Source: an uncultured Desulfovibrionaceae bacterium | Lineage (GTDB): Bacteria > Desulfobacterota > Desulfovibrionia > Desulfovibrionales > Desulfovibrionaceae | DNA length: 33,616 nucleotides | Direction: 5' to 3' | Assembly: GCA_944324045.1 (NCBI GenBank) | Contig: CALUUT010000104.1 | Location: 1 to 33,616, forward strand | Shown here: piece by piece, positions 1 to 24,396 of the stretch | Layout of the letters: each line of letters begins with the position of its first letter | Position numbering within the stretch: position 1 is the stretch's first letter | The notes under the pieces: model-generated | Databases searched by the model: none | Seen by the model: only the letters and a program-made list of their open reading frames with translations | Told to the model about the DNA's origin: nothing | Made by a program: the position numbers and the translations under genes

Positions 1-823
1 GAAAGCCAAACACCATGATAATGCCGCTGGCCGCCGACAACAAAGGAAAGATGACGCCGCGCACCGTGCGCAAGAAAAACGCCAGAATAGCGACGGACAA
101 GACAAGCGACACCCCAACCAGTTTTGGGGTTTACTTGGCCATGTACACCCGCTTTTCCAAATTGATGACCGGCAGCCCCGTGGTCCTGGGGTTTAAGGAC
201 GCATATTTTTCCCGCGCCGCGATTTCATTGACCTTGCGTCCGATTGCAATGTCGATGCCTTCCCCGTCCGGTCCGGTCGCATGGGCAGGCAACCGTTTCA
301 GGCGGAGCATAATCCAAGCCTGCCTGCCGTCATCGGACACGATGCGGTTTTTAAGCGAGGGTTTGCTCATGGCTTTTTCCCGTATCGCCTGCAAGGACGC
401 CGCATCCTCAGGAATGGGCTCAGGCACAAGATCGGCAATATCAATGCCGTATTCGTTGCCCTGGGAAAATTCCATATCGGTCAGTGAAAGCACATCGTCG
501 GCATACGGAACTTCTTTTTTCAGCTCTTGGCCCATTTCCCGGATAAGCCGCAAGGCATTCGCATCAAAAATATTGTCGCTTTCCACCAGTACCGCGCAAA
601 AATCATCATTTCCGAAAATGGATTCAAAATATTCTTTGGCGACAAGCAATGCGTCGCCTTCCAGAAAATAGTTTTCCTGGTTTGTGTCGGACTTGACCAG
701 TCGAAGACCGGATATGGCCACTGCCAGCAAAAGGACAAACACGATCAGGTTGACAACGCGGAATCTGAGAATCTGTCTTCCCGCGCGCCTGAACCGTTCA
801 TTCATTTTTTCAACATCCAGCAT
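1..823 (-). pseudogene. RND/MMPL-family transporter, 5' part, interrupted by in-frame TAA
   Basis: The N-terminal part of an RND-superfamily (MMPL-type) inner-membrane exporter. A cytoplasmic start is followed by TM1 at about residues 22-41 (VVNLIVFVLLLAVAISGL) and then a periplasmic domain. The ATG at 823-821 is preceded by GGAG at a normal distance. After 230 codons the frame meets TAA at 133-131. Reading on in the same frame to the window edge gives more than 40 uninterrupted residues with the second membrane segment expected of the family (GVSLVLSVAILAFFL, then RGVIFPLL). The break is therefore a nonsense codon where a family member would read through, not the natural end of the gene. One base change (for example GAA or CAA to TAA) explains it; sequencing error or readthrough are alternatives. 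It is the last visible gene of the biosynthetic operon, behind LolA-like and DUF1302 genes, so it is the likely exporter component. Confidence 0.8.
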
Positions 824-2991: not shown

Positions 2992-4371
2992 TCATCGCGC
3001 CGAAGAATCAAAACACGGCGTCCGGAACCTGTTTAAAACCGCTTCTCCAATATGCTCGCGCCGTTCCCTGTCGGTAATGCCCATGCCTTCACGCGGAACA
3101 ATATTCAGCACCCCAAGCTTGCCTACATGTTGCCCCTTATGCATGAGGGAGACGGCCTCGCTTACCTTTTCCAAAGGAAAGACGCGCGAAAGCACCGGAT
3201 GAAGGCGTCCTCTGCAGATAAGTCGCGCAGTCTGCATGGCTTCAAAGTAATTGGCTCCGTGCGAGCCGATGATGGTTTTCACCGTCTGCCACAGGTAACG
3301 ATTATCGAAAACATGGTCATAACCGGAGGTGGAGCCGCAGGTGACCACGCGGCCGCCTGTTTTGGCGACGCCGACGCTGGCGGCAAAGGTGGAACGTCCT
3401 GTATGCTCAAAAACGATATCGCAATCCTCGCCCCCCGTGTATTTACGGATGCGCGCCTTAAGTCTGAGTATTTGACGGGCCCTGGTATGGCCGTATTCGT
3501 CCAAAAACAGGTCTTCGCCCGGCTTGCGCTCAAGGACAATGACGTCGCGGCAGCCCAACTTCCGCACGACTTCCGCTTTTTTCTCGCTGGAAACAATTCC
3601 TATCGGGAATCCGCCGCCATTGAGCACCAGTTGAATGGCGAACGCGCCAAGACCGCCGGATGCTCCCCAAATAAGCACATTTTCGCCCTGCTTCATTCGG
3701 GCGCCGTTTTTGGAAACAAGCATCCGATAGGCTGTAGTCGCGACCAGGGGCATGGATGCGGCTTCCTCCCAGGAAAGGTGTTCCGGCTTTGGCAGCAGCT
3801 GGTTTTGCCGCACCACCGTGAAATGGGCAAATGAACCGAAGTTCGTTTCAAAACCCCAGGCCCGGCCATAGGGGTCGCGCACTTCGTCGTCATAGACTTC
3901 CGGCGAAGCCAAATCCACCACAGCGCCGAAAACAGTCACCCTGTCGCCCGGTTTCCATCGCGTGACCGCCTTGCCCACGCGGACCACCACGCCTGCGGCG
4001 TCTCCGCCTGGAATATGATAATCCTGGTTGTGTTTCGCATTAAATTCGCTGAACTTGGCGAACTCTCCAAGAAAATGGAATCCTGGCGCAGGCTCGAAAA
4101 TCGCTGTCCAGACATTATTGAAATTGACCGCTGAAGCCATGACCGCGACCAGCGCTTCATCCGGCGCAAGTTCAGGCAAGGGAACTTCGTCCACATGCAG
4201 CGAACGGCGCGGGTCTTTTTCCTGAAAAGCCTGCCCGCGAAACATATCCATCTCGTCGCGATGCACGGTGACCGCCGTCATGGTTTCAGGCAAAGGAGCA
4301 TGGGCGAAGTCCTCTGAGGTCGCCTTGCCGTCTTCCGTCATATCCACAAGTTGTCGCAACTCAGAACGCAT
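2992..4371 (-). CDS. ccr: Crotonyl-CoA carboxylase/reductase-type enoyl-CoA reductase
   Basis: A 459-residue MDR-superfamily protein matching crotonyl-CoA carboxylase/reductases along its length. The family reductively carboxylates 2-enoyl-CoA with NADPH and CO2 to alkylmalonyl-CoA. The nucleotide-binding loop is at about 234-242 (IWGASGGLG). Residues that form the CO2 pocket in the Kitasatospora enzyme (N81, F170, E171, H365) map to N85 in VNFNNVW, F174-E175 in WGFETNFGS and H371 in GSHGANY, so carboxylase activity is expected rather than simple reduction. Two substrate-pocket positions that are bulky in crotonyl-specific enzymes (Ile and Phe) are A171 and G372 here, the pair I recall from the octenoyl-CoA enzyme CinF. 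A purine-rich SD, GGGGAGGGGGG, precedes the ATG. Lying 3' of the PKS genes, it most likely supplies an unusual extender unit. Confidence 0.88.
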   Translation of the reverse strand: MRSELRQLVDMTEDGKATSEDFAHAPLPETMTAVTVHRDEMDMFRGQAFQEKDPRRSLHVDEVPLPELAPDEALVAVMASAVNFNNVWTAIFEPAPGFHFLGEFAKFSEFNAKHNQDYHIPGGDAAGVVVRVGKAVTRWKPGDRVTVFGAVVDLASPEVYDDEVRDPYGRAWGFETNFGSFAHFTVVRQNQLLPKPEHLSWEEAASMPLVATTAYRMLVSKNGARMKQGENVLIWGASGGLGAFAIQLVLNGGGFPIGIVSSEKKAEVVRKLGCRDVIVLERKPGEDLFLDEYGHTRARQILRLKARIRKYTGGEDCDIVFEHTGRSTFAASVGVAKTGGRVVTCGSTSGYDHVFDNRYLWQTVKTIIGSHGANYFEAMQTARLICRGRLHPVLSRVFPLEKVSEAVSLMHKGQHVGKLGVLNIVPREGMGITDRERREHIGEAVLNRFRTPCFDSSAR

Positions 4372-4570
4372 TATTATCTACCCCCCTCCCCTTTCCGGCG
4401 CAGCCCAATATCCATCCCACGCCGGGAACCAATATCGACACATCATTGTTCAAAAACGCCGGCCTCTGCGACGGCTCCAGACTCGCCGCCATGCAGGACG
4501 CTCCCGCAGCGGCCTTTTCATCCGGAAGCAACCTGGCCGCACCCGCCGGAATTCTGGCAAAACACGTCAT
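4361..4570 (-). CDS. Possible small peptide (69 aa) overlapping the ccr start
   Basis: An open frame of 69 codons begins with ATG at 4570, preceded by GAAGGGGA at ideal spacing. It ends with TGA at 4363-4361, overlapping the first codons of ccr by 11 bp, an arrangement typical of translational coupling. The peptide begins MTCFARIPAGAARLLPDE and has an Ala-rich middle, then a Val/Ile/Gly stretch (VSILVPGVGWILGCAGKG). I recognise no family. Three Cys residues and the hydrophobic C-terminal half are its only marks. It could be a real coupled peptide, a leader that sets ccr translation, or a chance frame within the ccr leader. The strong ribosome-binding site and the overlap are the only support. 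Confidence 0.35.
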   Translation of the reverse strand: MTCFARIPAGAARLLPDEKAAAGASCMAASLEPSQRPAFLNNDVSILVPGVGWILGCAGKGRGVDNNAF

Positions 4571-4739
4571 ATATAATCCCCTTCATATCTGGTCATAACA
4601 TCCCCTAATACCTGTCATTGCAATCTCCCGCATCATTGCCGCCTTGAAATGAACGGCGCGGACAGTATCCGGCATGGCGTCCGTCCACGCCACTCAGCAT
4701 TCCAACGACGTCACATCATGAGAAAATCATGCCGTGATA
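4372..4739 (-). other. Leader between the last NRPS gene and ccr
   Basis: 368 bp separate the NRPS stop from the ccr start, much more than any other gap among the assembly-line genes. The ccr-proximal half is covered by the possible 69-codon frame. In the other half (4571-4739) I see no good terminator, only short weak inverted repeats (GGCGT/ACGCC around 4685-4700). A promoter for the ccr-export genes could lie here, but no convincing -35/-10 pair was found. Confidence 0.4.
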
Positions 4740-7700
4740 TCAGGCGTCCGCCCGAATGGCGTCCATGATCATGCGCAGGGAATCCCCACTCATGACGGTC
4801 AGATGATTACCGGGAACCTCAATCACTTTCATATCCGCCGCCTGCGACCAATAGGCCATGGAATCGGGTCCATCCTGCGGATTGCCCGTGCCGCGGAAAA
4901 AGGTGATGCGGCCCTGCCAGTGCGCAGGTTTGTACTTGTGCATGGCGTCAAGATTGCTTCTCAGCACGGCATATCCATCCCTGAACCTCTTTTCCGACAT
5001 GCTTTCAAAAAAGCCCTGTCCGCGCGCTCTTTCATACAAAACCGAAAGCCGCCGCTCCTGCGTCATGTCCGCAAGTTCAGACAAACCGACAATCGGTTCA
5101 CGTTTTACGTCCGTCTCCCTGACCATGGCGTTCAAGGCGCTTAAATGCGCATCATCGTTCACCCCGCGCACAAGGCTCATGGGCATGCCAAGCATCCCGG
5201 CATATACGCACAGGGAACGGATATCATCCGCATAAACCTCGCGCGGCAACAGATAGGAATCTATCAGCGTCACCTTTTCAATGGGAATTCCGCGACCTTT
5301 CAGCTGAGCCGCCATTTCATACGCCACAAAGCCGCCCATACTGAAACCAATCAGCCGGTGGGGTCCTTCGGGCTGTATCTTCAGCATGGCCTCAATGTAT
5401 ACGGCGGCCATTTCTTCAATATTGGCCAGAGGCTCTTTCCGGCCATCCATGCCTGCGGGCTGAAAACCGTAAAGCGGCGTATCCGGCTTCAGGCGATGCG
5501 CCATTTCCGCGAACATCAGCAAGGAACCCTCAGCGCCTGGGACGCAGAACCATGGAGTTTCGCGGCCGCTTGGCTGAAGCGCCGTTACCGCGCCATGCCC
5601 GCTCGCTGCCGGGGCGTCAATGCGCCGCGCCATATCTTCAAGGGTTGCAATCATGTAGATATCAAGAACAGAGAGCTCGACCCCAAACGTTTCATGCACC
5701 TTGCCGATTAAAACAGTGGAAAGAAGCGAATCCCCGCCCAGCTCAAAAAAGTTGTCCTTTAAACCGGGCGAATCCACATGAAGCGTCTCCGCCCAAATCG
5801 CGGCCAGCTTTTTTTCTGTTTCACTGCGCGGAGCGACATACGGCCTGCGTTCCTGCAAAGACTCCATTCCGGGATGGGGCAACGCCCTTCTGTCCACCTT
5901 TCCGGAACGGTTCAAAGGCAACGCATCCATAAAAATATACTTTGAAGGCAACATATAGGCGGGCAGCCGGCTCTCAAGAACCTGCTCCAGTTTGGAAGAT
6001 TCAAATATCTTCAGGATATCCGCGGCGCGAGCGCAGATCACGTCTATTCCCATGCTGGCGAAATTGGCGTTCAGTTTGGGAAAGACATGAACATCGGCAA
6101 ATCCCGCGCAACGCAGACATTCTTCCCATTGTTCAACGGAAAGAAGCGGATGCAAAGGACGCAGGTCCGTATCTTCAAACACGTCAAATCCCTGCTGAAG
6201 CCCCATCCCAAGGTCGAAACACTTCAAAAAAGAGGTTTGTTCCACAAGGAACAATATCCCCCCAGGCTTCAACAGGGAGAGAAGAGAGCGCAAAGTATGG
6301 GCGATGATGCGCGTATCGTGAACAACGCTGCTTGCCACAATGGCGTCATAGGAATGCAGCTCCAGACCCTGCGCTTCTGGCGGATTGTTCAGGTCATAAA
6401 ACTGATAGGACACGAAATCGTACGCTGCGAAGTTCGTTTCCGCGTTTTGCAGAAAATACTTGGAGATATCTGTAAAAAGATAGTCCGTTCTGGCGCCGTC
6501 CAGCGCTGCAAGTATGCCCTGCGTCGTGCCGCCATGCCCGGCGCCGACTTCCAAAACCGTCATTTTTCCCTGCCGGCGTTCCCCTTCCATAAGTTTCAGG
6601 GCATTGCCGATTAACCGGCAGGAACTTTTAAACATGACCGGATAGAGATCCTTAGCCTCCGGCGAGGCGTACAATTCCGCGGAATGGATGCGTTCGCGCA
6701 AAAGATCGGCAAGGTGCAAAGCGGTATTGTACATAAACTCGTCCATCTTCCGCCCTGCGAACATGGCTTTTAGCGCCTCAACAGAGCCGACTTCAAGGGG
6801 GCGCACGCTGCGGAATCGTTCGCCCGCCTGAACAAGAACGCCCTTTTCGCACAGATTGAGCAGCGCGCGCCGCAACCATTTTCCATACCGGGAACTGATG
6901 CGGGTATGACGGATGATCTCTTCAATGGAATAGGCGTCGCCAATCCGGGCAAACAGCCCCAGTTCGGAAAACGCCGCCTGCACCCCGGCTTCATACAGCT
7001 CTTCTCCCAATGCATAGGCAGCCAAACTCTGGGCGTCCGCCTCGGCCCCTTTGCCGAATTCACGATCGAAATCAAGAATGCGCCGCCATGACTGCTCGCG
7101 CTCTTCGGAATGAGCCTCCAAAGTCGTGCAAAGCGCTTCGGGACTCGTTTCATCAGGCACGACATAGGCCGCAAGATATTCGGATTCCCCCTGCTTCACC
7201 GGATTGACCACAGCGTCCTTAACCCCTTCGCATGAGCGCAGGACATGCTCTATTTCTCCAAGCTCCACACGAAAGCCATGAATCTTAAGCTGGGTATCCT
7301 CGCGCCCCATAAGCACAATATAACCGTCCGGATGAAAATAGCCCACGTCGCCTGTCCGATACAGCCGTTCTCCTGTGACCGGATGCATAATAAAGGCCTG
7401 CTTTGTTTTTTCGGGATCATTCCAATACCCTCTGGCAAGTCCTGCGCCGCCGATATACAGGGAGCCCGGAACCCAGTCCGGACATTGCTGCAAAAACTGA
7501 TTGAGCACATAAAAACGCTGATTGCGCATAGGCGCGCCATAGGGAATGCTTTTCCACTGCGGGTCTATCTCGCCTACGGGATAAATAATGGACCAGATGG
7601 ACGCCTCCGTAGCGCCGCCAAGGCTGACCACCTGGGCGTCGTATTGTTCCCGAATGCGCTCCGGAAGAGACAGCGGCAACCAGTCCCCAGACAGCATAAC

Positions 7701-10037
7701 CAGTCTAAGCCCCCCTTTTCCGGCGTTTTTGCGCGTGGCGGAACGGTATTCAACAAGCATCTGCATCATTGCGGGCACTGTATCCCATATCGTGACCCCT
7801 TCCCGCTCCACCATCTCAAGCCAATGGGACGGCTCCTTTTCCTTGGCCGGATCGGGAAAAACAAGTGCCCCGCCCGCAGCCAGCATTCCGAACACGTCCC
7901 ATACGGACAAATCAAAACTCAGGCTGGCCAAGGCGAAAACCCTGTCCACCTGATTGATCTGAAACCGGCTATTAATATCAATTATGGTATTAAGCGCGGC
8001 CTGGTGTTCAATCATGACGCCCTTGGGCGCGCCGGTTGAGCCGGAAGTATAGACGACATAAGCCAGATCGTCGGGCGACTGTATCGGAGAGCGTTGCAGG
8101 AGCGGCGCGGGCTCTCTTTCCTCAAGCGCATCGACAAAAACCGTCGCAAGGTCTTTGGGCCACTCCACGGATGCCGCAAAACACGATTGGGTCAATACTA
8201 TGCGGACATTGCCGTCCCTCAAAATGAAAGCAAGGCGTTCGGCGGGCTGCGCCGGATCCACGGGAAGGTACGCCGCGCCGGCCCAAAGAATTCCCAGGAC
8301 CGCGACAACCTGCTCCCAGCCCTTGGCCATGGAAACGGCGACAAGTTCTCCGGGGCGAACCTTTCCATCCAGTTCGCAGGCCACAGCCGCGGCGCGGCGC
8401 AGCACTTCGCCATAGGTCAGTTTTCTTTCAGGAGTAATGACTGCGACAGCGTCGGGACATGTCGCGGCCCGCTTTAAAAAGGGCGCATGCAAAAGCCCCT
8501 CCGGGATAGGCGCATCGGTTGCGTTGTACTTTCGGCGCTGAGCAAGCTGGGTTTCAGGAAGCTCCACGACGGTCTTTTCCCGCCAAAGCGCGGGCTCTCT
8601 GGCCAATCGTTCAAGCAAGCCGGTGTAAGCATCAAAAAGCGCATCCAGATAGCCGGGCGGAAAATATTCGGAACGGACATCCCAATGAATGCCAAGACGT
8701 CCCCAATCCTCAAAAACCTGATGATCGATAAGCAGTTGCGGAGTCTGACTGGCGGAAAAGACAACCTTCGCCGGGTTGCCGTCAAGGGTCACAGTCGTCA
8801 ACGCGGCGCTGTATTCGCCCATAAGAAACGCGCTGGTGAAGACCACCGGCATATATTGCTGTTCCTTTTCCGACCGGTATCGATTGAGTTCGCGCAGTAC
8901 GTCCATCCCGCTGAATTGCCGGTTGTCAAGATCATTCCACAGACTGTCGCGCAACGCTCCGGCCCGTTCCTCGAATGTCATGTCTGGATTGGCCTTGACC
9001 TCAAGCAGCAGCGTGTCCGTGAAATCTCCTATGAGCTTATCAATCTGCGGATGCAGCGGAAGCCGGTTGAACAAAGTCAGATTCAGACAGAAATCCGGCT
9101 CGCGATTCCACAACCGCAACACTTCGGAAAAGGCGGCCGCCAGAATGCTTGTGGGCGACAGTCCTCTTTTTCTGCCCATATCTTTAAGGCGGCTCCAATC
9201 CTCTTTGGAAAGCCCGCCGGCATATCGCTTGACTTTGGGGCGTTCCCTAATATCCTGTTCCGTGAACACAGGCATGTCCGGAGCCGGCGCAAGCGTGGGG
9301 ATGCGTTTTTTCCAATAGTCGCGCGCCGCCCTGTATGAATCCATGTTTCTGCGGTTTTCCAAGGACAGCACATAGTCGCGGAACGTAAGCTCCATGGGCT
9401 CAAGCAGGCAGTCCGGGTTTTCATAAAACTGCTTGATCTCATCCAGCATGGTGCTCAGACTCAACACGTCTCCGAACAGCCCTTCAAGACTCAGATGGAT
9501 ATGGTATGTCTTCTCATCAAGACGACTGACATAGATATCAAACATGGGCCAGATATCCGCGGGCTTGATGATCTGCCCGAGCTCGTCGCGAATGGCGTCG
9601 AGTTTGGCGGATTTTTCCTCTTCGGAAAGCCCCCGCAGGTCAAAATACCGGATATCATAGGGCGGAACGGTTTCCAGGACGCGCTGCCGGCCGTTCGGCA
9701 AAATAATGCAGCGCATCATATCGTGACGCTCAATAAGTTTTCGCCATGCGGCCTGATAGCGTTCCACGTCAAGATGACGGGTTTCCAGCTCAAAATAGAC
9801 ATGACTTGACACGTCGCTCATGCCAAGCGCCGCGTTTTCCCGCCCAATCACATAGGCAAGCTGTATGTCGGTCAGGGGAAAAGGCTTGTACCGGTCCTCT
9901 GGCCTTACAACAATGATCGGCTTGCGCTCGACTTCCGCGGCATCCTCAACTCCTTCCTTTTCCAGAAACATGGCCAGAAGGGATTCCTGTTCCTCTGTAA
10001 GCCGGTTTCCCCCTGGAAGCGTGGATTCACAACTCAT
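4740..10037 (-). CDS. NRPS: Cy-A[stuffed methyltransferase]-PCP-TE, terminal module
   Basis: A 1765-residue terminal NRPS. I chose the ATG at 10037 with GGAGGG five bases upstream; the frame also opens at a TTG at 10097 that overlaps the PKS stop. Cyclization domain about 50-495: E185-x4-D190-xx-S193 (first Asp of the usual motif is Glu), with Thr401 and Asp438 of the proposed cyclodehydration dyad. Adenylation domain about 515-1390: P-loop YTSGSTGAPKG, pocket residues D-L-W-D-M-S-L-I-W plus Lys1380, Cys-like but not canonical. A methyltransferase-like domain is inserted at about 970-1340 with an intact SAM motif (E1163-V-G-A-G-H-G-G). Carrier Ser1437. Thioesterase with Ser1566 (GFSMG), Asp1593 and His1745. 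In yersiniabactin HMWP1 the equivalent region is Cy-MT-PCP-TE without an A domain. The predicted job is addition and cyclization of the last Cys-like unit, its methylation, and release. Confidence 0.92.
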   Translation of the reverse strand: MSCESTLPGGNRLTEEQESLLAMFLEKEGVEDAAEVERKPIIVVRPEDRYKPFPLTDIQLAYVIGRENAALGMSDVSSHVYFELETRHLDVERYQAAWRKLIERHDMMRCIILPNGRQRVLETVPPYDIRYFDLRGLSEEEKSAKLDAIRDELGQIIKPADIWPMFDIYVSRLDEKTYHIHLSLEGLFGDVLSLSTMLDEIKQFYENPDCLLEPMELTFRDYVLSLENRRNMDSYRAARDYWKKRIPTLAPAPDMPVFTEQDIRERPKVKRYAGGLSKEDWSRLKDMGRKRGLSPTSILAAAFSEVLRLWNREPDFCLNLTLFNRLPLHPQIDKLIGDFTDTLLLEVKANPDMTFEERAGALRDSLWNDLDNRQFSGMDVLRELNRYRSEKEQQYMPVVFTSAFLMGEYSAALTTVTLDGNPAKVVFSASQTPQLLIDHQVFEDWGRLGIHWDVRSEYFPPGYLDALFDAYTGLLERLAREPALWREKTVVELPETQLAQRRKYNATDAPIPEGLLHAPFLKRAATCPDAVAVITPERKLTYGEVLRRAAAVACELDGKVRPGELVAVSMAKGWEQVVAVLGILWAGAAYLPVDPAQPAERLAFILRDGNVRIVLTQSCFAASVEWPKDLATVFVDALEEREPAPLLQRSPIQSPDDLAYVVYTSGSTGAPKGVMIEHQAALNTIIDINSRFQINQVDRVFALASLSFDLSVWDVFGMLAAGGALVFPDPAKEKEPSHWLEMVEREGVTIWDTVPAMMQMLVEYRSATRKNAGKGGLRLVMLSGDWLPLSLPERIREQYDAQVVSLGGATEASIWSIIYPVGEIDPQWKSIPYGAPMRNQRFYVLNQFLQQCPDWVPGSLYIGGAGLARGYWNDPEKTKQAFIMHPVTGERLYRTGDVGYFHPDGYIVLMGREDTQLKIHGFRVELGEIEHVLRSCEGVKDAVVNPVKQGESEYLAAYVVPDETSPEALCTTLEAHSEEREQSWRRILDFDREFGKGAEADAQSLAAYALGEELYEAGVQAAFSELGLFARIGDAYSIEEIIRHTRISSRYGKWLRRALLNLCEKGVLVQAGERFRSVRPLEVGSVEALKAMFAGRKMDEFMYNTALHLADLLRERIHSAELYASPEAKDLYPVMFKSSCRLIGNALKLMEGERRQGKMTVLEVGAGHGGTTQGILAALDGARTDYLFTDISKYFLQNAETNFAAYDFVSYQFYDLNNPPEAQGLELHSYDAIVASSVVHDTRIIAHTLRSLLSLLKPGGILFLVEQTSFLKCFDLGMGLQQGFDVFEDTDLRPLHPLLSVEQWEECLRCAGFADVHVFPKLNANFASMGIDVICARAADILKIFESSKLEQVLESRLPAYMLPSKYIFMDALPLNRSGKVDRRALPHPGMESLQERRPYVAPRSETEKKLAAIWAETLHVDSPGLKDNFFELGGDSLLSTVLIGKVHETFGVELSVLDIYMIATLEDMARRIDAPAASGHGAVTALQPSGRETPWFCVPGAEGSLLMFAEMAHRLKPDTPLYGFQPAGMDGRKEPLANIEEMAAVYIEAMLKIQPEGPHRLIGFSMGGFVAYEMAAQLKGRGIPIEKVTLIDSYLLPREVYADDIRSLCVYAGMLGMPMSLVRGVNDDAHLSALNAMVRETDVKREPIVGLSELADMTQERRLSVLYERARGQGFFESMSEKRFRDGYAVLRSNLDAMHKYKPAHWQGRITFFRGTGNPQDGPDSMAYWSQAADMKVIEVPGNHLTVMSGDSLRMIMDAIRADA

Positions 10038-10093
10038 CAAACCCTCCAATGTAAACGTTGCGGCCCGGACTACCCTCTCCCGGCCTTTTTCAC

Positions 10094-13000
10094 TCAACCC
10101 CGCTTTTTTTCCGCGAGCATCCTTTGCACTTCCTCAGGCGACATGTTTCGCACCTTCATATACATTTGCGCGATTTTACGCGTCTGGCCTTCCCGCCTTT
10201 CATGACGCGCAAGAAACGCCGCGAGCTTCGCCACGGTGTTTTCTTCAAGCAGTCCGCGAATCGGGATTTTTATGCGGAAAATTTCTTCCAGCCTGGAAAC
10301 CATGGGCAAGGCGTGCAAGGAGTCGCCGCCCAGTTCAATGAACGTATCGTGGACTCCTATATTCTCGATTCCAAACAATTCCTGCCACACCTCCGCCACG
10401 ACACGCTCCACATCATCAGCGGGCGCGACATAGGGCGTCGCCAGACGCGGGCGTTTGGCGGCAACGGTTTTGACGTTAAAGGACTTATAATCGATCAACG
10501 TCTTCTTGATATTGTTCAGAAACGTTTCCATGAGCGCGCCATAATCGGATGTGGACACAATCAATTGCTCAACAGGGGCGGCAAGGGCGCGCTCAATGCA
10601 TTTCATGCCTTCAGCGGGCAGAATTCCGCGCACCGGAACATCGCCCATAAGTTCAATAAGTTTGGGCAAAAGCTGCACGCCGATTCCCACGCCGTCCCAG
10701 TACCCCCAGTTCACGGCGACGACGCGGGTTTTTGTGGATTCGCGATTCTTCTTTTGGGCAAAGGCATCCATGAACAGACATGCCGCCGTATAATCGGTAT
10801 GCCCAAGGGCGCCGACATGCGACGAAATTGAGGAAAAGAGCATGAGAAAATCAAGACTGTCCCGTCCAAGCTCATCCAATACAAACGTGCCATGCACCTT
10901 CGGGGCAATGACGGAAAAACTCCGTTCCGCGGTCTGCGCCTGAATCATGCTGCTGGCGGCCGTGGACGCGGCATGAAAGACGCCATTGATTCCGCCGAAA
11001 ACGCGCGCCGCCTCATTCCATACGCGCAGCATGGAGTTTCTGTCCGCGACATCCGCCTGCATGGGCAACGCATGCGCGCCCATGCCCTCCAGAACGCGCA
11101 CCTGAAGGATGCGCCGTGAAACGGCATCATCCTCTCCATGCAAATGCAGCCACGCGTCCCACTCCTCACGCGGCGGCAAGGCTGTCCGTCCGGTCAGAAC
11201 CAATCGGGCATGATACTTTGCCGCCAGATATTTGGACAGTTCAAACGCCACGCCGCCGAAACCGCCGGTAATCAGATAAACGCCGTTCTCTTTAAGTGGA
11301 ATCCGTTCCGGAACGGAAGGCGGAAGGCATATATTGTCAAAAAACTGTTCCCAGCGGTGGCGGCCGCGATAGGCCGCAATGCCGCGAAAGGCTTTCGCAT
11401 CCTGTTTTTCCTCTACCGCATGAGAAATGGCCGCGACGTCGCGAATGACCGCATCCACAACTTCATGGCGCGGCGCGCCCGGAACGGGTGTTTCAATATC
11501 GATGTTCATGGTCTGGACATGCAGAAATTCACTGGGAATCACCTTGCAGGGTCCAAGAACCATGACCTTTTCGGGAGACAGAATTTCATCGCCGGTAACG
11601 GAATGAAGATGGTTTGACACAACGCCGAGACTGACCGGAAGTTTTTCCATGCCTGCGGCAAAAAGGGCCCGCGCTATGGCAATGAGACTGTGGTATCCTG
11701 TAGGAAGGCACGCCTCATAAAACGCGGGACCGCTTTCCAGTGAAGCATCGGATGTGACGGACCAGGCGTGAATGATGCGTCCCGGTTTCATTCCCTGATC
11801 AAGAAGCGCTTTGAACAGAGAAACATACTCCGCTTCTTCAGACGGATTGATTTCAAAGGCGAGTCCGCTCTGAACAAAACCGGCTCCCGGCCTGACGCGG
11901 ACCACGCGTTTTCCCGCCGCTTCAAGACGGTCCGCCGCAGCGTCGCCAAAACCAAGATTGTCCGCAAACACAAGCCAATCTTGATCAAGCTTTTCAAGTT
12001 CGCCAAGCGACAGCTCAGTCAAAAGAAGTCCGCGTTCCCATACAGGAAGGAAATACCATGTCTCGCTGTCTTCCCGCTTATCCATCAGCCTGCGCATAAG
12101 CTCTTTGCCGCCGTGTTCCTTGGAAGCGCGGCCGCCCGGCGCGTTGTCGCTCCAGTAGCGTTCCCGTTCAAACGGGTAGGTCGGCAAGGAAATCCGTCCG
12201 GGATGGGCCTGCGCATACTCATCGCAAAACCAGTCAAGATGGATTCCGGCGACAAAAAGCCGTCCAAGCGCCTGAAGAAGAAAGCATACGTCTCCGTTGT
12301 CCGGCTCGTCCGCGCCGCGCATTGACGGAATGGCCGCATGACTATCAAGGAATGCTCCATGCCGGCGGGCGAACGCAGTCAGACCTTTGCCCGGACCGGC
12401 TTCAAGCAGCACGGCGTTGGGATCTTTTAACATCTCCGCCAGATTATCTGAAAAACGCACGGGTTGTCTGATATGTGCGGTCCAGTAATCGGCGCTTTGC
12501 GCCTCTTCATGGGACAGCCATGTCCCCGACACATTGGAGAGCATCGGCAAGGAGGGCTCGCGCATGGGAATGGTCTTCATGAACGCGCGAAATTCTTCAA
12601 GGATGGGGTCCATCAAAGCGCTATGCCCGGCGCGAGATACAGGCAGACGCTTAAAACGGATTTTCGCATCCGCAAGTTTTGGCTCAAGGGCCTCAATGTC
12701 TTCAGTGCTCCCGGCCACGGTGCATAAAAGCCCGGTATTGACCGCGGCGATGGACAGGGTTCCCGTCAGAAGAGGACGGACCAACTTTTCCGGGGCAAAC
12801 AGCATGAGCATTCCGCCAGGGGCGCATTGCTCCATAAGCTGACCGCGCTTTACGACCACGCGCAAAGCGTCTTCCAAAGAAAAGATGCCGCACAACACAG
12901 CGGCCGCATATTGCCCAAAGCTGTGTCCAGCGCATCCTGATGGTTTGACGCCCAGGCTCATCAGCAAACGGGACAGCGCATATTCCGTGACAAACAAGGC

Positions 13001-14782
13001 GGCAAGAGCAAACGGCGGCTTTTGCAGCAACGCCTTTGCTTCACAGTCCGACTCATCGGAATACAGAACCGTCCGGATATCGACGCCAAGAGCCGGCCGC
13101 AAAAGCGTCGCGCACTCGTCCACGACTGCGCGAAAACAGGCTTCCTCCCTGTACAGCTCCTGTCCCATGCCCGGATACATAGAGCCCGCGCCCGGAAACA
13201 GGAAAAAAATGTTCTTGTCCGCCTGCGCGGCTGGGGCATGGGCCGGCGCTTGCGCAACCCATTTTTTTTCTTCAAGGGAAACTTTAAGTTCCTGCACATC
13301 CCGGCACACCACGGCAAGACGATACAAAAACGCCTTGCGTCCATGCTGAAGCGTATACGCCACATCCCCCAGCTCAACCCCTTCATGCTCGCAAAGGAAT
13401 TCATGCAGCCGGTTGCTTTGCATCGCTAACGCTTCCGGCGAGTTGGCTGAAAGGGGGATAATATTCCAGGCGCGCGGCGATGCCTTTTTCCGAATATTTG
13501 GCGCTTCTTCCACAAGAAGATGCGCATTTGTTCCGCCAAGCCCAAAGGAACTCACGCCCGCCCGCAATGGGGAAGCGAGCCATGGCGTCAACTCCGTGCA
13601 GGGAACAAAGCGCGTCGCCGCAAAATCAATTTCAGGATTGGGCGCTTCAAAATTGCAAAGCGGCGTCAGTGTTCTGTGCTCCAAAGAAAGCATGACGCGT
13701 ATAAGCCCCGCAACGCCGGCGGCGCAGTTGAGATGACCGATATTTGTTTTAACGGACGCTATGGCGCAAGGCGGTCCGCTTTTTCCGTAAACTTCGGAAA
13801 GGGCGCGAATTTCAATGGGGTCGCCCAGGGGCGTGCCCGTGCCGTGCGCCTCAATGTACGAAACGCTTTCCGGATTGAATCCGGAGAGCTGTAAGGCTTC
13901 GGCAATGACGGCTTTTTGCCCGCTTACGCTTGGCGCGACAAATCCCACCTTGTCCGCCCCGTCATTATTCACCGCGAACCCGCGGATCACTCCATAAATA
14001 TGGTCTCCATCCGCCACAGCGTCTTCAAGGCGCTTTAAGAGCACGACCGCTGCGCCATTGCCCGAATTCATGCCCGACGCCCGATGATCAAAGGCATGAC
14101 AACGCCCGTCGCGCGAGAGACCGCCCTCTTCGGACGTAAGGTAGCCCGTGCGTTCGGGCAACGCGACCGACGCCCCGCCGGCCAGAGCCATCTCGCATTG
14201 AAAATCCAGCAAGGCATGACATGCCGCGCATACGCTCACCAGAGAACTTGAACACGCGCTTTGCACGGAAAAAGCCGGTCCTTTCAGGTTCAGCTTGTAG
14301 GCCACGCGCGCCGCCGCGTAATCCTTGTCGTTTCCAAGAAGGATTTCAAAAAAACGCCCCGGCTCGCCTGGAAAGCGCGACGTATCAAAGGGCAGATAAC
14401 TGCTTGGCGCCACGCTGGCGAACACGCCTGCGGAGCGGATCTTTCCGGGAATATATCCGGCGTCTTCAAACGCCTCCCACGCGCATTCAAGAAAAAGACG
14501 CTGCTGCGGATCAATGGTTTCCGCTTCTCTTGGCGTGTAGCCAAAAAAGGCCGCATCAAATTCGTCAACATTGTTCAATACGTAACCGGACTTGACGAAT
14601 CCTTCCTTTTTAAACAGTTCCGCCGGAATATATTCCTGCAACTCCTCGTCGCTGAACGCCGTCAGCACATCCGCTCCGCTTTTCAGATTTTCCCAAAAGG
14701 TTTTGATATCCTTCGCGCCTGGAAACCGCCCCGCCATCCCAATCACGGCGATGCCCATCCCTGGCGGCAATGTATTTTCCAT
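10094..14782 (-). CDS. Type I PKS module KS-AT-KR-carrier
   Basis: A 1562-residue single-module PKS. KS about 8-428: Cys177 (SACSSS), His313 (EAHGTGTP), His350 (KTNIGHL). AT about 525-870: Ser621 in GHSFGQ; the specificity motif at 717-720 reads RAGH, unlike HAFH (malonyl) or YASH (methylmalonyl). KR about 905-1420: NADPH loop GGFGG at 1173, Ser/Tyr (Y1331), with the usual YxAAN reading YTAAC; no LDD motif. Carrier protein Ser1488 (ELGGDSL), then a short C-terminal helix suited to docking. There is no methyltransferase between AT and KR; that stretch is the KR structural half. It corresponds to the PKS part of yersiniabactin HMWP1 minus its MT, separated from the following NRPS into its own gene. 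It would extend the aryl-bis-thiazoline by one ketide and reduce the beta-keto group. Confidence 0.93.
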   Translation of the reverse strand: MENTLPPGMGIAVIGMAGRFPGAKDIKTFWENLKSGADVLTAFSDEELQEYIPAELFKKEGFVKSGYVLNNVDEFDAAFFGYTPREAETIDPQQRLFLECAWEAFEDAGYIPGKIRSAGVFASVAPSSYLPFDTSRFPGEPGRFFEILLGNDKDYAAARVAYKLNLKGPAFSVQSACSSSLVSVCAACHALLDFQCEMALAGGASVALPERTGYLTSEEGGLSRDGRCHAFDHRASGMNSGNGAAVVLLKRLEDAVADGDHIYGVIRGFAVNNDGADKVGFVAPSVSGQKAVIAEALQLSGFNPESVSYIEAHGTGTPLGDPIEIRALSEVYGKSGPPCAIASVKTNIGHLNCAAGVAGLIRVMLSLEHRTLTPLCNFEAPNPEIDFAATRFVPCTELTPWLASPLRAGVSSFGLGGTNAHLLVEEAPNIRKKASPRAWNIIPLSANSPEALAMQSNRLHEFLCEHEGVELGDVAYTLQHGRKAFLYRLAVVCRDVQELKVSLEEKKWVAQAPAHAPAAQADKNIFFLFPGAGSMYPGMGQELYREEACFRAVVDECATLLRPALGVDIRTVLYSDESDCEAKALLQKPPFALAALFVTEYALSRLLMSLGVKPSGCAGHSFGQYAAAVLCGIFSLEDALRVVVKRGQLMEQCAPGGMLMLFAPEKLVRPLLTGTLSIAAVNTGLLCTVAGSTEDIEALEPKLADAKIRFKRLPVSRAGHSALMDPILEEFRAFMKTIPMREPSLPMLSNVSGTWLSHEEAQSADYWTAHIRQPVRFSDNLAEMLKDPNAVLLEAGPGKGLTAFARRHGAFLDSHAAIPSMRGADEPDNGDVCFLLQALGRLFVAGIHLDWFCDEYAQAHPGRISLPTYPFERERYWSDNAPGGRASKEHGGKELMRRLMDKREDSETWYFLPVWERGLLLTELSLGELEKLDQDWLVFADNLGFGDAAADRLEAAGKRVVRVRPGAGFVQSGLAFEINPSEEAEYVSLFKALLDQGMKPGRIIHAWSVTSDASLESGPAFYEACLPTGYHSLIAIARALFAAGMEKLPVSLGVVSNHLHSVTGDEILSPEKVMVLGPCKVIPSEFLHVQTMNIDIETPVPGAPRHEVVDAVIRDVAAISHAVEEKQDAKAFRGIAAYRGRHRWEQFFDNICLPPSVPERIPLKENGVYLITGGFGGVAFELSKYLAAKYHARLVLTGRTALPPREEWDAWLHLHGEDDAVSRRILQVRVLEGMGAHALPMQADVADRNSMLRVWNEAARVFGGINGVFHAASTAASSMIQAQTAERSFSVIAPKVHGTFVLDELGRDSLDFLMLFSSISSHVGALGHTDYTAACLFMDAFAQKKNRESTKTRVVAVNWGYWDGVGIGVQLLPKLIELMGDVPVRGILPAEGMKCIERALAAPVEQLIVSTSDYGALMETFLNNIKKTLIDYKSFNVKTVAAKRPRLATPYVAPADDVERVVAEVWQELFGIENIGVHDTFIELGGDSLHALPMVSRLEEIFRIKIPIRGLLEENTVAKLAAFLARHERREGQTRKIAQMYMKVRNMSPEEVQRMLAEKKRG

Positions 14783-14799: not shown

Positions 14800-17700
14800 T
14801 TAAACGTTGCCTCTTTTTGTCTTCCGATGCTGGAAAAACGCGCCATGGCGCGCGCGACGCCGCGCGATTCTGGCCTGTTCCGCCTCATTTTTTTCCGGCT
14901 CTTCCTCTGCCTCGACAAACCGGGCAAAGGCGCGAACCGTCGGATATTCAAAAACGCTCACCAGCGGGAAGGAACGCCCAAAAGCCGCTGCAAGCCTTTG
15001 ATGCAGGCGCACCGCCAGAACGGAAGTTCCACCCAGGTCAAAGAAATTATCGTCAGCCCCAATGTCGCGCCGTTCAAGGAGTTCTTCCCACACAAGCGCC
15101 GTGCGCCGTTCCGCCGGGGATTCGGGACGCGCCGCCGCAACGCGCTCAAATCCGTCCTGTTCCGCACGCCGCGCAAGCTCGCCTCTGTCCACCTTGCCGT
15201 TTGCGGAAAGCGGCATGGCGTCAAGAAAAAACACCTGAGCCGGAACCATATAGCCAGGCAGAAATTCGCTCGCGAACGCGCGCAGGGCTTCTCCGTCGGT
15301 TGTTTCGCAAACAGTTGCGAACGCGACGATTCGACGCTGTGCGCTCTCTTTTCCGGCGACTACCGCCACAACATCCTCAACCGCTTCATGCCGCCTGAGC
15401 GTGGCCTCGATTTCGCCAAGTTCAATACGATATCCGCGCACCTTGACCTGAAAGTCCTCGCGGCCAAGAAATTCAATCAGACCATTGGGCAAAAAACGCC
15501 CCATATCGCCGGTGCGGTACAACCGCTCTCCTGTCTTGGGATGCGTAATAAAGCTTGCGGCCGTCCGCTCGTCATCCTTCCAGTATCCTTGCGCAAGGCC
15601 TATGCCGCCGATGTACAGTTCGCCGGGAACCCAGTCAGGGCGTTCATTAAAAAAGGCGTCAAGGACATGAATGCTCTGATTGCGCATGGGACGGCCGTAG
15701 GGAATGCTCTTCCATTCCGGCTCAACCATCTCAATGGGATATACAATGGACCAGATCGAAGCCTCTGTCGCGCCGCCAAGACTGACGACCTTAATTCCAG
15801 GCCACGCTTTTTTAACGGCGTCCGGCAGGCCAAGAGGAATCCAGTCTCCAGAAAGAAGCGCAAGCCGCAAACGCAAAGGAACCTTTTCGGGAACAGCGGC
15901 GGCGTAATCCGCAAGCATCTGCATGAGCGCCGGTACGGAATTCCAGATCGTCACGCCGGTTTTCCGCATAAGCGGCAGCCAGTGCGACGGGTCTTTAAGA
16001 CGCCGCGCGTCAGGAAGCACGACGGCTGCTCCGGCGGACAGCGCGCCCCAAATGTCATAGGCTGAAAGATCGAAATGCAGCCCGGATAACCCGAACAGCC
16101 GGTCTTCTGGCCCCACATTGAAGCGCTCATTCATATCAAGCGTCGTATTCACGACGCCGCGATGGTCGATAACCACGCCTTTGGGTTGCCCGGTGGAGCC
16201 TGATGTATAGATAACGTAGGCAATGTCGCGGGAATTGATCGAGGCGGGCTGGAGCTTCGTTTCCGCATCCGCCGGCGTTTTCAGGGCATCCACCGCAATG
16301 GGACGCACGCCCGTTTCAGGCCATAGCGGCGCATCCATAAGTCCGGAACAGGTCAGCGCCACTTTCACTTCGCCCGAACGCAGAAGAAACTTTTGCCGTT
16401 CGGCAGGAAGCGTGGGATCGATGGGCAGATACGCGGCGCCGGCCCGAATGACGCCCACGACAGCCGCAATCTGTTCCCAGCTTTTTTCAAGGACAATGCC
16501 CACCAACCGGTTCGGAGCGGCTCCGTTTTCGCGCAACGCTCTGGCCACGGCTTCGGCGCGCGCTTCCAGTTCCGCATAGGAATAGGATGCATGCGGCGTT
16601 ATCACCGCTATGCGTTCAGGGTGTTTTTTTGCCTGTTTGCGAAACAGGGAATCCAGGGTTTCAGGCGACAAAGGCCCCGCAGTGTCATTGAAGGCCGCCC
16701 GGGCGACACGTTGTTTTTGCGGAAGAGGCGGCAGCGCCTTCTCTTCCCAACCTGCGCCGCGCGCAAGACGCGACAGCAGTTCTGTATATGCGTAAAACAT
16801 GGCGTCCAGCATGCCGTCGGGAAACAGCTCCTCGACCGCATCCCAGTTCAGCACCAGCGCGCCGTTTTGTTCATACGCCTGATGATCAAGACAGACTTGG
16901 GGCGTTTGCGTGACGCTTGCGACCAGCGTGCCCAATTTGGAAAGAGAGGATGCGTCGCGAGCCGCCCCCAGGCTTACCGCCCCGGTAAACACCACGGCCG
17001 GCGCGGGAAGCCGTCCACGCTTGCGAAGCTCGCGCAAGACGCGCACGCCGCCGACCATGCGGTGATTCATGTCCGCCCAAAGCTGATGCTGCAACGCTTT
17101 GGCCTTTTCAAGAAAAGAGCCTGTTCCGCCTTCCACCGCAAGAAGGTCAAGAGAGGTGAAATCGCCCACGAGCTCATGCGCCTGAGGATGCAAATCCAGC
17201 CGGTTGAACAAGGTCAGGTTGAGCGTAAAGCGCTGGTTGCGGCTCCACATGCCGATGATTTCGGCATACGCCGCGATAAGAAACCCGGAAGCGCTCAATC
17301 CGGCTTTACGGATGCGGTTTTTCAGCGCGCTCCAGATATCCCTGTCCAAAACCATGCTGCGCCGCGTTGTCCGCGTGCATTCAAGACCGGCCGGGTTTTT
17401 CGCCATCGGCAGTTCCGGCGGCATGGGAATATCATCCAGTCTGGAGTTCCAGTACGCCCAGTCGCAAAGCCATGCTTCCGATTTCTGCAACGCTTCCTCG
17501 GCCATGACGTAATCGCGAAAGGACAGAGCCAGTTCCGGAAGGGACGCGGCAGGATTATGATAGAGTTTAAGCCACTCATCCAGCAGCAGAAACAGACTCC
17601 AGGCGTCGGCGATGAGCGCGTCGAAATCAAGGAATAAACGAATGCGCTCGCCATCCGAAGCGTCATAGCGCACGGCTCTGATTTCAAAAAGCGGACCTGT

Positions 17701-20700
17701 TTCCACGGGCAGCGTCTGCGAGGACATGCGGATGCGCAGAGACTCCAGGGCGGATTTGAGCGCTTCCGGCGAACAACCGCGCATATCATCCACAGCAAAG
17801 ACATAAGGCGGAACTGTTTCCAGAATCTTCTGGGTTCCGTCAGGAAGGAACACCGCGCGCAGCATGTCGTGACGTTCGACCAGCCGTTGCCAGGCCGCAT
17901 TGAGCATATCCAGGTCCAGACGCAAATCATCGAACTCGAAATAAACATGAGTGGCCACGTTTCCCAATTCATACGCGCCAGTACGCCCTATCCAGTAGGC
18001 ATGCTGAATATCGGTCAGGGGAAAGGGAAGGTATCGTTTCTCAGGCGCCGGTTTCAATATGGGGAGCGCCCGTCTTGTTTCAGAAAGCGTTTCCGGTTTG
18101 TTCTGAGCCTGCAGACAAGCCGCCAGTCCGGCTATTGTCGGGTTTCTGAAAAGCTGATCCAGCCCGAAATCGACATGAAGCTCAGAGCGTACCCTGGACG
18201 TCAGCCGCGTAGCCAGCAGGGAATCGCCGCCCAGTTCGAAAAAGCTGTCGTGAACACCTATGCCGTCCTGGGAAAGAATTTCGGACCAGATTGCAGCCAG
18301 CGCCTTTTCCATCGGTGTGCCGGGAAGGGCCCGCGATTGCGTGACGGCGTCCGCATGCCAGCGCAAAGAAGCCAGCGCCTTGCGATCCAGTTTTCCGTTG
18401 GCTGTTGCCGGCAGCCTCTCAAGACGCCTGAAACTTTTGGGAATCATGTATTCCGGAAGTTCCTGCCGAAGAAAATCCGCCAGAATCTGCTCGTTCAGCT
18501 GTTCCGCCGCATCAGGACCCTGAACAACGGCAACGCGGAAACCAAGAAATTCTGAAAGCGCGTCGGATGCCGGAAGCAAGACGAATCGGGCAAAGCCCCG
18601 CGACATAAACTGCCGCTCCCATTCCTCGATGGACAAAAGAGGATGATCCTGACGCAATGCCGCATCTTCGTACCCGTCCCATCCCTGCTGCAGCCCCATG
18701 CTGAGATCAAACGGCTTGTGAAATTTGGTTTCCTCAAGCAGGATGACCACGCCGCCCGGCGCGAGCAAAGAAAGAATAAAATCCAGGGATTCGCCGATGT
18801 TCTTGACGTCGTGCAGCATGCTGGCCGCCAAAATCACATCAAAGGAATGCGGCGGATATCCCTGAATGTCAGGCCGTTTGTCCAGATTAAGCAACCCGTA
18901 TGTGACGCGGGGAAATTCCCTAAACCGCTCTTTGGCCGCATCCAAAAACCATGTTGATATGTCCGTAAAATGGTATTCCGCAACGTTGCGCGTCAGTTCA
19001 GGCAAAAGATGAAGCGTCATGGACGCGATGCCCGCTCCTGTTTCCAGCGCTTTCAAATTTCCGGCGCTGTTCCCATCCGCAATGATGTGGCGCAAAAGAC
19101 GGCGCATATCTTCATAGCAGGGAGCAAAGAGCTTTTGATATACGCGCGGAATGCGTTCATCCACGTATATTTCCGCTGAATGAAACGTGCCTTTCAGTAT
19201 TTCCGTCAGCCGCCGGGCCGGCATCAGCGCAAAAAGCTCCAGCTCGCTTTCCGTGAAGCCGGCGATATATGCCGCTTCACGACGTATTTCCTCTGACAGC
19301 GCATCCAGCGGCTCAACCGGAAGAGGAGCGTCATTAATGAATGCCGCGTCCTGTTCACGAAGCAATCCCATGGATGAAAGAGCGCGCATGGCTCGCCGCA
19401 GCCAGCGGGCATACCGCGGCAAAACGCCTTTGTCCCGGATAAGGGATTCCGGAGAATGCCGCTCCCCGGCTGACGCGTACGCGCCAAGCTCGCGCAAGGC
19501 GTTGCACGCCGCAAGACAATACAGGCGTTCAAGACGCTCCCAAGCGCGCAGGAATTCAGGCGTAAGATTTTGCTTTGCGTCTCTTCCGATATGAGCGGCG
19601 TTCGTATCTGCAAAATCGAGCCATGCCGCACGCAATTTTTGATCGGGGCTTTGACGCGATTCGAGCAAAGAACAGTCTTTTCCCGCCTGAACGACGACAA
19701 ACGCGTCAAGTCTTTTCCCGCCCTGAGCCTGTTCGGATGCGACCACCACGGCATCGCGCACGTCCGGATGACTGCGCAGAGCCGATTCTATTTCACCAAG
19801 TTCGATACGGTGCCCTCTGACCTTGACCTGCTGATCTTTCCGGCCCAGAAATTCGATGGTTCCATCAGGCCAAAACCGGCCAAGGTCTCCTGTACGATAC
19901 CAGCGCGTTGCGCCGTCATGGACAAAACTGCGGGCTGTAAGCGCCGGGTCGCCGCGATATTCCAGGGCAACGCCGCGTCCGCCGATCCAGAGTTCTCCAG
20001 GCGTCCAATCCGGACAATCCCGCCCCAGTCCGTCAACCACGCGATACGCCTGCCCCGGAAGGGCTCGTCCATATGGAATGGACGTCCAGTTTTCCGGCAA
20101 CGGCAGATGCACGTCCTGCACATTGGACCAAATGGCGGCCTCGGTCGCGCCGCCAAGCGCCGCAAAACGGCATTGCGGCGCGGCCTGCGCCAATCGTTCG
20201 GGAAGGTCAAGCCCTATCCAGTCTCCCGACAGAAGCGCCAAACGCATTGATGCCAGCGAGCCGGGCCATTCCTGCGCATCCACAAGCAGCATATCCAAAA
20301 GGATGGGAACGGAATTCCAGACGCTGACCTCATGCCGCGCCGCGCATTCGCGCCAAACCGCGGCATTGCGGCGGTCGGCCTCATCCAATATGACCAGCGA
20401 GCCCCCAATTCCAAGCATTCCGAAGACGTCAAAAACAGACAGATCAAAATCCATGGCCGAAACAGCAAGGACTCTGTCGTTTTCAGAAAGACCATACCGC
20501 TGAACCACGGCATGTATGGTATTCAGCGCGGCCTCGTGCGTGATTGCAACGCCTTTGGGCTCTCCTGTGGAACCTGATGTAAAGATGACGTACGCTAAAG
20601 CGTCCGCGGGAGAAAATTCCGGAGTCGCGACAGGCGCATCCCGCGCTGTCGCAATATCCAATACAATGGCGTCATCAGGCCAGCCCAGCGATTCCGCCAA

Positions 20701-22718: not shown

Positions 22719-24326
22719 TCAGCCCCGCCGTTCCTCCGCCATGCGCGCCAACTGCCGTTTGTTGATCTTTCCCACGGCCGTCACCGGCCAGCGCTCCACA
22801 TATTCAAGCTGGTCGGGCAACTTGAACGGCGCAACCCCCTGCTTGCGCAAAAACGCATGCAGCTCGGAAAGAACAGGCATTTTCGCCGCTTCTTCCAAAC
22901 GCACCCAAGCGCATGTGCGTTCGCCAAGCGTTTTGTCAGGAACGCCCACGACAGCGGCATCTGCAACTCCTGGATAAAAACGAATTTGATTTTCAATTTC
23001 AGTAGAAGAAAATTTTTCACCGGCCCGATTGATCTGATCCCTCAAGCGTCCGCGAATCTGGAGCCGCCCGGAAGCCGTCCATGCCGCAATATCGCCGGAG
23101 CGACAGTATCCTTCGGCCGTGATGTTCCGCCGGCTCAAGTCTTCCGAACAAAAATAGGATGCAAGAGTGCAGGGGCCTCGAACAATTAATTCCCCTTCTT
23201 CGCCGGACGGAACGTCTTTGCCGTTTTCATCGACAATGCGCAGATCGTCTTCCTCAAAAAGCGGCGGTCCCTGAACTCGCGTATCCTCAAGATAGGAAGG
23301 ATCATCCGGATCGGTATAACAAACCAGCCCTTCAGAAAAACCATATGCCTGCTGAATGCGGCAGCCGAGCGCCTTCATTGCGGCGACCGCAATGCCCGGA
23401 TCAAGCGGCGAGCCGCCTACCTGCACCAAGTTCAGGCTGGACAGATCGCTGTCATCCCATGCGCGCGCTTCAGTCCAGGCCCGCAGCAAAGGCGGAACCG
23501 CTGCCGTCAACGTCACCTTTTCCCGCTCAATAAGCGGAAAAACTTCATCAAAACTTGGCGTTCCGGCGAGCACAACCTTTGCGCCTTGCGAAAATGCGCC
23601 GATGATTCCAGGGCATCCCATGCAAAAATGGTGTCCAACCGGAAGCGCCGCCAGATAAACGCTCTCTCCTACAAGGCCGCAGCGTTTGGCGGAAGCCATG
23701 GCGTTGCATACATATTGGGCATGCGTTTTTGGAATCATTTTCGGCGCGCTCGTCGTGCCGCCCGAAAGAAGGATAAACGCCGTATCCATCGCATCCGGAA
23801 AAAATATTTCCGTTGGGTCTCCGTCCAGACTCTCCAGTGCGACGCTGCCCGGCGCCTTTCCGTCATCGCTGACAAAAAGGCGCAAAGAGGCATGACGCCG
23901 GCGCATTTGCGCCACAAGCGGCGCATAGTCATAGCCCATGAAGCGGCTTGGTGCGAAATACACGGCTGGCTTGACGATTTCGCACAAAATATTGATATCC
24001 GCTTCACGGTAGGCTGGAAGCGTCAGAATGGGAATCACGCCAAGGCGAAAACACGCAAAGGCTGCAAGAACATATTCGACGGCATTGGAAAACTGAAGAA
24101 TGGCGCACATGCCGGGCATTACTCCATTGTCGCGCAATCCCGCCGCAATCCGTTCCGAACGTCGATGCAGCTCCGCATACGACAAGCGCCGGGAATGAGC
24201 GACAAGCGCGATTTTTTCCGGATAGGCGCTTGCCCAGAGCGCCAATTCTTCCCCTAATGAATATGGACGCCAATGCTCCCTCTTCCAATAACCGGCGTCC
24301 ATGCTCCGATGAGCCTGCAAGTTCAT
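22719..24326 (-). CDS. Aryl-acid AMP ligase (salicylate/dihydroxybenzoate-type)
   Basis: A 535-residue stand-alone adenylating enzyme that activates an aryl acid and loads it on the ArCP of the next gene, as YbtE, PchD, MbtA and DhbE do. P-loop LLSGGTTSAPK at about 187-197; A5-type motif YGFSEGLVCYT; catalytic Lys520 in VGKINK. Relative to DhbE, the aryl pocket has His233 for Asn235, Cys238 for Ser240 and Val335 for Val337. Cys is the salicylate-type residue and Val the dihydroxybenzoate-type residue, while His at the Asn position is unusual, so the substrate is uncertain. I chose the ATG at 24326 (GAAGGGGA upstream); a longer frame to 24449 would run through the promoter and into the transferase gene. 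It is first after the Fur-like element and 41 bp ahead of the large NRPS. Confidence 0.9.
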   Translation of the reverse strand: MNLQAHRSMDAGYWKREHWRPYSLGEELALWASAYPEKIALVAHSRRLSYAELHRRSERIAAGLRDNGVMPGMCAILQFSNAVEYVLAAFACFRLGVIPILTLPAYREADINILCEIVKPAVYFAPSRFMGYDYAPLVAQMRRRHASLRLFVSDDGKAPGSVALESLDGDPTEIFFPDAMDTAFILLSGGTTSAPKMIPKTHAQYVCNAMASAKRCGLVGESVYLAALPVGHHFCMGCPGIIGAFSQGAKVVLAGTPSFDEVFPLIEREKVTLTAAVPPLLRAWTEARAWDDSDLSSLNLVQVGGSPLDPGIAVAAMKALGCRIQQAYGFSEGLVCYTDPDDPSYLEDTRVQGPPLFEEDDLRIVDENGKDVPSGEEGELIVRGPCTLASYFCSEDLSRRNITAEGYCRSGDIAAWTASGRLQIRGRLRDQINRAGEKFSSTEIENQIRFYPGVADAAVVGVPDKTLGERTCAWVRLEEAAKMPVLSELHAFLRKQGVAPFKLPDQLEYVERWPVTAVGKINKRQLARMAEERRG

Positions 24327-24394: not shown

Positions 24395-24396
24395 GA

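Follow-up and report, generated by a model that had tools for sequence, protein, structure and literature searches.

Organization of the gene cluster

The window, i.e., the whole stretch of DNA analyzed here (33,616 nucleotides, from an uncultured Desulfovibrionaceae bacterium), harbors an NRPS-PKS gene cluster on its minus strand. In minus-strand order, it encodes a type II thioesterase (25122–25907), a 4'-phosphopantetheinyl transferase (PPTase; 24397–25146), a stand-alone AMP-ligase that probably activates an aryl acid (salicylate or DHB; 22719–24449), NRPS1 (14800–22677), a PKS (10094–14782), NRPS2 (4740–10097), and the carboxylase that is the subject of this study (2992–4371). These are followed by a LolA-like periplasmic protein (PF17131; 2152–2937), a DUF1302 putative outer-membrane protein (882–2183), and the N-terminal part of a probable RND/MMPL-type exporter (131–823), which was named by eye from a fragment lacking a Pfam hit. 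NRPS1 is composed of ArCP, Cy, A with an inserted MT-like domain, PCP, Cy, A and PCP, and NRPS2 of a Cy-like domain (E....D..S), A, MT, PCP and TE. Inspected by eye, the A-domain signatures look cysteine-like, most clearly in the second. The PKS is a single KS-AT-KR-ACP module, the AT of which carries the GHSFG active-site motif at 12914–12928 and a RAGHS specificity motif at 12620–12634.

The domain order (ArCP, two Cy-A-PCP, KS-AT-KR-ACP, Cy-A-MT-PCP-TE) is the topology of yersiniabactin. The cluster shares with the yersiniabactin line (HMWP2/HMWP1, YbtE, YbtT, YbtD) the aryl-AMP ligase, the ArCP, Cy-A-PCP thiazoline modules, a single PKS module with KR, the final Cy-A-MT-PCP-TE with a terminal TE, the type II thioesterase and the PPTase, the third Cy domain having its motif in the form E....D..S. 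It differs in its extra A domains, in its division over three separate proteins, in a carboxylase that yersiniabactin lacks, and in that no YbtU-like thiazolinyl reductase was recognized within the window. No YbtS salicylate synthase was recognized there. A further difference lies in the PKS. The yersiniabactin PKS module contains a C-methyltransferase that produces a gem-dimethyl carbon with two SAM-derived methyls, whereas no methyltransferase match was obtained in the window PKS, which thus departs from the yersiniabactin type in this respect; the PKS proteins of four carboxylase-bearing relatives likewise lack one. Judged by the resemblance to yersiniabactin, the product of the cluster is probably metal-binding.

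Some further features of the locus were observed. Most relatives encode a stand-alone thioesterase directly upstream of the carboxylase gene (4781–5539 in L087, 7070–7837 in L115, and also in G160) that the window does not have, and no remnant of it was found in the 368-bp gap (4372–4739) upstream of the carboxylase gene. The exporter frame (5–823, minus strand) is interrupted after 230 codons by an in-frame TAA at 131–133. Beyond this stop, the frame stays homologous, as far as the end of the contig, to the uninterrupted relative in L087 (748 aa read), indicating either a nonsense mutation or a sequence error. Directly upstream of the operon, the GC content is 45% (26001–28000) vs about 55% elsewhere, and palindromes near 26370 weakly resembled Fur boxes, with 6 of 19 mismatches, which we judged uninformative.

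Identity of the carboxylase and its active-site residues

The ORF at 2992–4371 is a real gene that starts with ATG and encodes 459 aa. An earlier reading of the sequence only had taken it for a Ccr, which is borne out by a score of 483.4 bits against the NCBIfam equivalog for crotonyl-CoA carboxylase/reductase (TIGR01751; cut-off 378.55 bits), the gene lying on the minus strand. Its nearest solved structures are the Ccr of K. setae, S. collinus and S. coelicolor, and CinF, the 2-octenoyl-CoA carboxylase/reductase of cinnabaramide (PDB 4a0s, 4a10). With 52% identity to the crotonyl-specific Ccr 6owe and 50% to CinF, it is marginally nearer to Ccr. The AlphaFold model (mean pLDDT 87, pTM 0.90; low confidence at residues 159–165 and 347–357) matched the solved Ccr and CinF structures over nearly the full length, with best TM values of about 0.90 to 0.93. 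Based on the profile score, the solved relatives and the structure model, we assign the protein to the enoyl-CoA carboxylase/reductase (Ccr/ECR) family.

The CO2 pocket is complete. The residues with published roles in CO2 binding in K. setae Ccr, N81, F170, E171 and H365 (PMC10966969; the 6na4 chain numbering has an offset of 4), correspond to N85 (codon at 4117–4119, minus strand, as are all codons given here), F174 and E175 (3847–3852), and H371 (3259–3261), exactly the four residues that the sequence-only reading had named. That reading had also equated A171 and G372 with Ala163 and Gly362 of CinF, and the alignment to CinF (4a0s), which contains no gap, places R162-A163 opposite R170-A171 (A171 codon, 3859–3861) and position 362 opposite G372 (3256–3258). 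The CinF numbering of that reading is correct, since the letters of the CinF sequence read A163 and G362 by count. Opposite A171 and G372, the crotonyl enzymes (6na4, 6owe, 3hzz and 3krt) carry Ile and Phe, also as claimed, and the window enzyme thus has the small residues of CinF at both positions. The other specificity positions are a mixture that tracks phylogeny. V350 of AntE was considered as a further gatekeeper but allows no inference, since AntE is only a distant relative and the residue falls in another loop (near D352).

The Ala/Gly pair is predicted to enlarge the substrate pocket, yet the step from this pair to a medium-chain substrate, as originally proposed, is too strong, since C4 and C5 enoyl-CoAs are also carboxylated by CinF (PMC8252502). 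The residues themselves stand, and the RAGHS motif of the partner AT agrees with the prediction.

Distribution and phylogeny of the carboxylase

Among 83 fetched relatives readable at both sites, the residue pairs at positions 171 and 372 were A/G in 73, I/F in 5, A/A in 3, A/C in 1 and I/C in 1, counts to be read with the fetch pattern AWGFETNF in mind, which favored A171, residue 372 lying outside every pattern. Because A/G was found in 73/83 and I/F in 5/83, the A/G pair is the usual state among the secondary-metabolism homologues retrieved and is not rare. The motif SHFANY, described before as the usual one, is usual for the Ccr of primary metabolism but not beyond it.

In the phylogenetic tree, the carboxylase falls in a clade of seven Desulfovibrionales sequences (support 100/99), in which all seven have Ala at position 171 and position 372 is split between Gly (four) and Ala (three). 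This clade joins enzymes of Rhodospirillales and divergent, type-B carboxylases of Desulfovibrionales (G067, G207, G239), which have an I/C pocket pair and a Tyr replacing F174. It is separate from the actinobacterial A/G clade that contains CinF, and the window enzyme does not group with the latter. The second Desulfovibrionales carboxylase type (loci L085, L111 and L112; 46–47% identical), with Ile/Cys at the pocket positions and Tyr for Phe in the CO2 pocket, nonetheless has an AGHS acyltransferase as partner. In addition, a conserved A/G-type carboxylase occurs in dozens of Actinomadura species (L019, L027, L030 and many further loci). Within the order, a Ccr-family carboxylase is present in 10 of 348 genomes.

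Pairing of the carboxylase with the acyltransferase

The specificity motif of the window AT, RAGHS, is neither that of malonyl (HAFH) nor that of methylmalonyl (YASH) ATs, having instead the xAGHS form of alkylmalonyl-selective ATs. CinAT1, which is selective for hexylmalonyl-CoA (PMC8044089), has Arg744 and Gly746 at this site, and the double mutation Y744R/S746G in EryAT6 made the butyl-type (larger-extender) product dominant (PMC13351777). AGHS is also common to three hexylmalonyl ATs (PMC10888640). The motif therefore provides support for a large extender that is independent of the pocket residues. Consistently, locus L029, encoding a protein that matches CinF at every residue aligned, has a nearby AT that reads RVERAGHS; the second AT of this locus reads SSAAHS. 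The support is limited by the occurrence of GAGHS and AAGHS in ATs adjoining other carboxylases.

Wherever the AT of a carboxylase-bearing cluster could be read (10 clusters), it carries [RK]AGHS or RPGHS: RAGHS in the window, G160, G301, G312, G207 and Insolitispirillum (L022); KAGHS in G198 (the same genome as G220), G067 and G239; and RPGHS in G227, where the carboxylase and the PKS lie on different contigs. G202 has a KAGHS AT and no carboxylase detected in a genome that is 63% complete. Three related lines in the carboxylase-free genomes G218, G274 and G206, on the other hand, have HAFHS. At the specificity site, FH[ST] is found in 30 other type I ATs from the order, and one hgl-type AT reads YPFHS. 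The cluster is syntenic in G160, G301 and G312, and the syntenic run spans several genera. In Insolitispirillum peregrinum (L022, 740–14864), a related cluster of the NRPS-PKS type contains an A/G carboxylase, a RAGHS AT and a thioesterase, and two more large ORFs, of 674 and 603 aa, follow the carboxylase.

In the AT tree (rooted for drawing only), the carboxylase-linked ATs cluster together (support 92/91), apart from CinAT, and the AGHS motif therefore looks independently derived in the two lineages. Since AGHS ATs are also paired with the I/C carboxylases in the clusters of G067, G207 and G239, AGHS alone does not settle the chain length.

Supply of the enoyl thioester

In the source genome, a draft rated 100% complete, crotonase, acyl-CoA dehydrogenase, thiolase and an over-threshold MaoC hydratase were all not detected, and neither the window nor the genome yielded a dedicated enoyl-CoA supply gene. 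Six further genomes with the carboxylase also yielded neither thiolase nor over-threshold MaoC hydratase, which makes seven with the source genome. Crotonase was missing from seven of nine genomes, with one match each in G301 and G312, and acyl-CoA dehydrogenase from the four genomes searched. Control searches for these supply genes were positive in most known genomes. The source genome encodes one FabH and AMP-binding-family acyl-CoA ligases, and no enzyme that would desaturate acyl-CoA was detected. Because beta-oxidation-type CoA genes were not found, the enoyl thioester presumably derives from the trans-2-enoyl-ACP of fatty acid synthesis.

Proposed role of the carboxylase

A PKS without a methyltransferase, the RAGHS motif of its AT, and HAFHS in the related carboxylase-free lines together argue that the carboxylase very probably supplies the yersiniabactin-like line with an alkylmalonyl extender that replaces the gem-dimethyl carbon. 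We consider likely an explanation in which this enoyl-CoA carboxylase/reductase, a member of the Ccr family, is dedicated to the pathway. Based on its family membership and intact CO2 pocket, it would use NADPH and CO2 to convert a trans-2-enoyl thioester, presumably fed from fatty acid synthesis, into a 2-alkylmalonyl thioester. The RAGHS AT of the adjacent single PKS module would then load this unit, and the aryl-thiazoline chain would gain one alkyl branch at the carbon that bears two methyls in yersiniabactin. Both the carboxylase and the extender-loading AT bear the sequence marks of longer-side-chain enzymes, and the favored reading of A171/G372 with RAGHS is a side chain most likely of C4 to C6. 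Relative to yersiniabactin, the predicted product would have the same mass with an ethyl branch, +28 with butyl and +56 with hexyl, minus 2 H for every ring left unreduced. The claim of the sequence-only reading that the side chain is longer than ethyl is somewhat the better bet, given the pocket and RAGHS, but is not a result, given the pairing of I/C carboxylases with AGHS ATs and the relatives with Ala372.

The most serious alternative, which we nevertheless regard as unlikely, is that crotonyl thioester is the substrate in vivo, the open pocket being permissive only. Ethylmalonyl-CoA would then be the extender, and the product an ethyl isomer of a yersiniabactin-type compound. All nine ECRs in one screen, CinF included, carboxylated C4 and C5 enoyl-CoAs (PMC8252502), and the Ala at position 372 in three of the seven clade members and the AGHS ATs of the I/C type-B enzymes would also fit this alternative. 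However, both small pocket residues would be unneeded for crotonyl, because crotonyl-specific enzymes keep Ile and Phe, and the window motif RAGHS is that of the hexylmalonyl-selective CinAT1. It is far less probable that the enzyme turns acryloyl-CoA into methylmalonyl-CoA, or that simple enoyl reduction is its main activity: although Ccr tolerates acryloyl-CoA (PMC8252502) and plain reductases have the same fold, the four CO2-pocket residues are all intact, YASH, the motif of methylmalonyl ATs, is absent from the AT, and an open pocket is superfluous for a small substrate. A role in primary metabolism (the ethylmalonyl-CoA pathway), with the carboxylase beside the cluster by chance, would agree with the shared family but is the least probable of all, given its place within a syntenic run in several genera, its rarity in the order, the missing thiolase and MaoC hydratase and, in the source genome, crotonase, and pocket residues unlike those of primary Ccr.

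Comparison with known systems

The alkylmalonyl extender role favored here has a precedent in the antimycin family, where the gem-dimethyl made by a methyltransferase in JBIR-06 and neoantimycin is traded for an alkyl branch supplied by a CCR in antimycin (AntD/AntE; PMC6117356). Antimycin differs in its depsipeptide scaffold and actinobacterial origin, and AntE is distant, with 33–34% identity to the window enzyme. CinF is similar in family, CO2-pocket residues, the Ala/Gly pair and a partner AT with RAGHS. In contrast to CinF with its actinobacterial A/G clade and CinAT, the window enzyme lies outside that clade, would serve a thiazoline NRPS-PKS line in a bacterium of the Desulfovibrio family, and is accompanied by an AT of a separate lineage. 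The bilothiazole (bil) cluster of Bilophila likewise encodes an arylthiazole NRPS-PKS from Desulfovibrionia, but the main text of its description (PMC11934131) does not mention crotonyl, carboxylase, extender or ethylmalonyl. In the open-access literature searched, which takes in few subscription journals, we found no description of a carboxylase in a cluster for a thiazoline or yersiniabactin-like siderophore, and on that basis the combination of a carboxylase with a yersiniabactin-like line is provisionally new.

Implications for Desulfovibrionales

The Desulfovibrionales include sulfate reducers of the gut and the mouth, about whose natural products little has been learned (PMC11934131). 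These results raise the question of how a cell without detected CoA-based beta-oxidation feeds an enoyl-CoA carboxylase. We consider it a rather doubtful but conceivable answer that enoyl-ACP is taken straight from the fatty acid synthase (or through a dedicated ACP-to-CoA step), which would give anaerobes without beta-oxidation a lipid-tailed arylthiazoline metallophore; an ACP-dependent reductive carboxylase would, to our knowledge, be new. The recurrent pairing of a carboxylase with an AGHS AT is usable as a genome-mining signature, though not as a ruler of chain length. Overall, the cluster points to an added route for varying yersiniabactin-type compounds, in which a CO2-fixing enzyme would be used instead of methylation. 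If the chain is longer, the product would be an amphiphilic metallophore, which could alter where it is retained and which organisms can use it.
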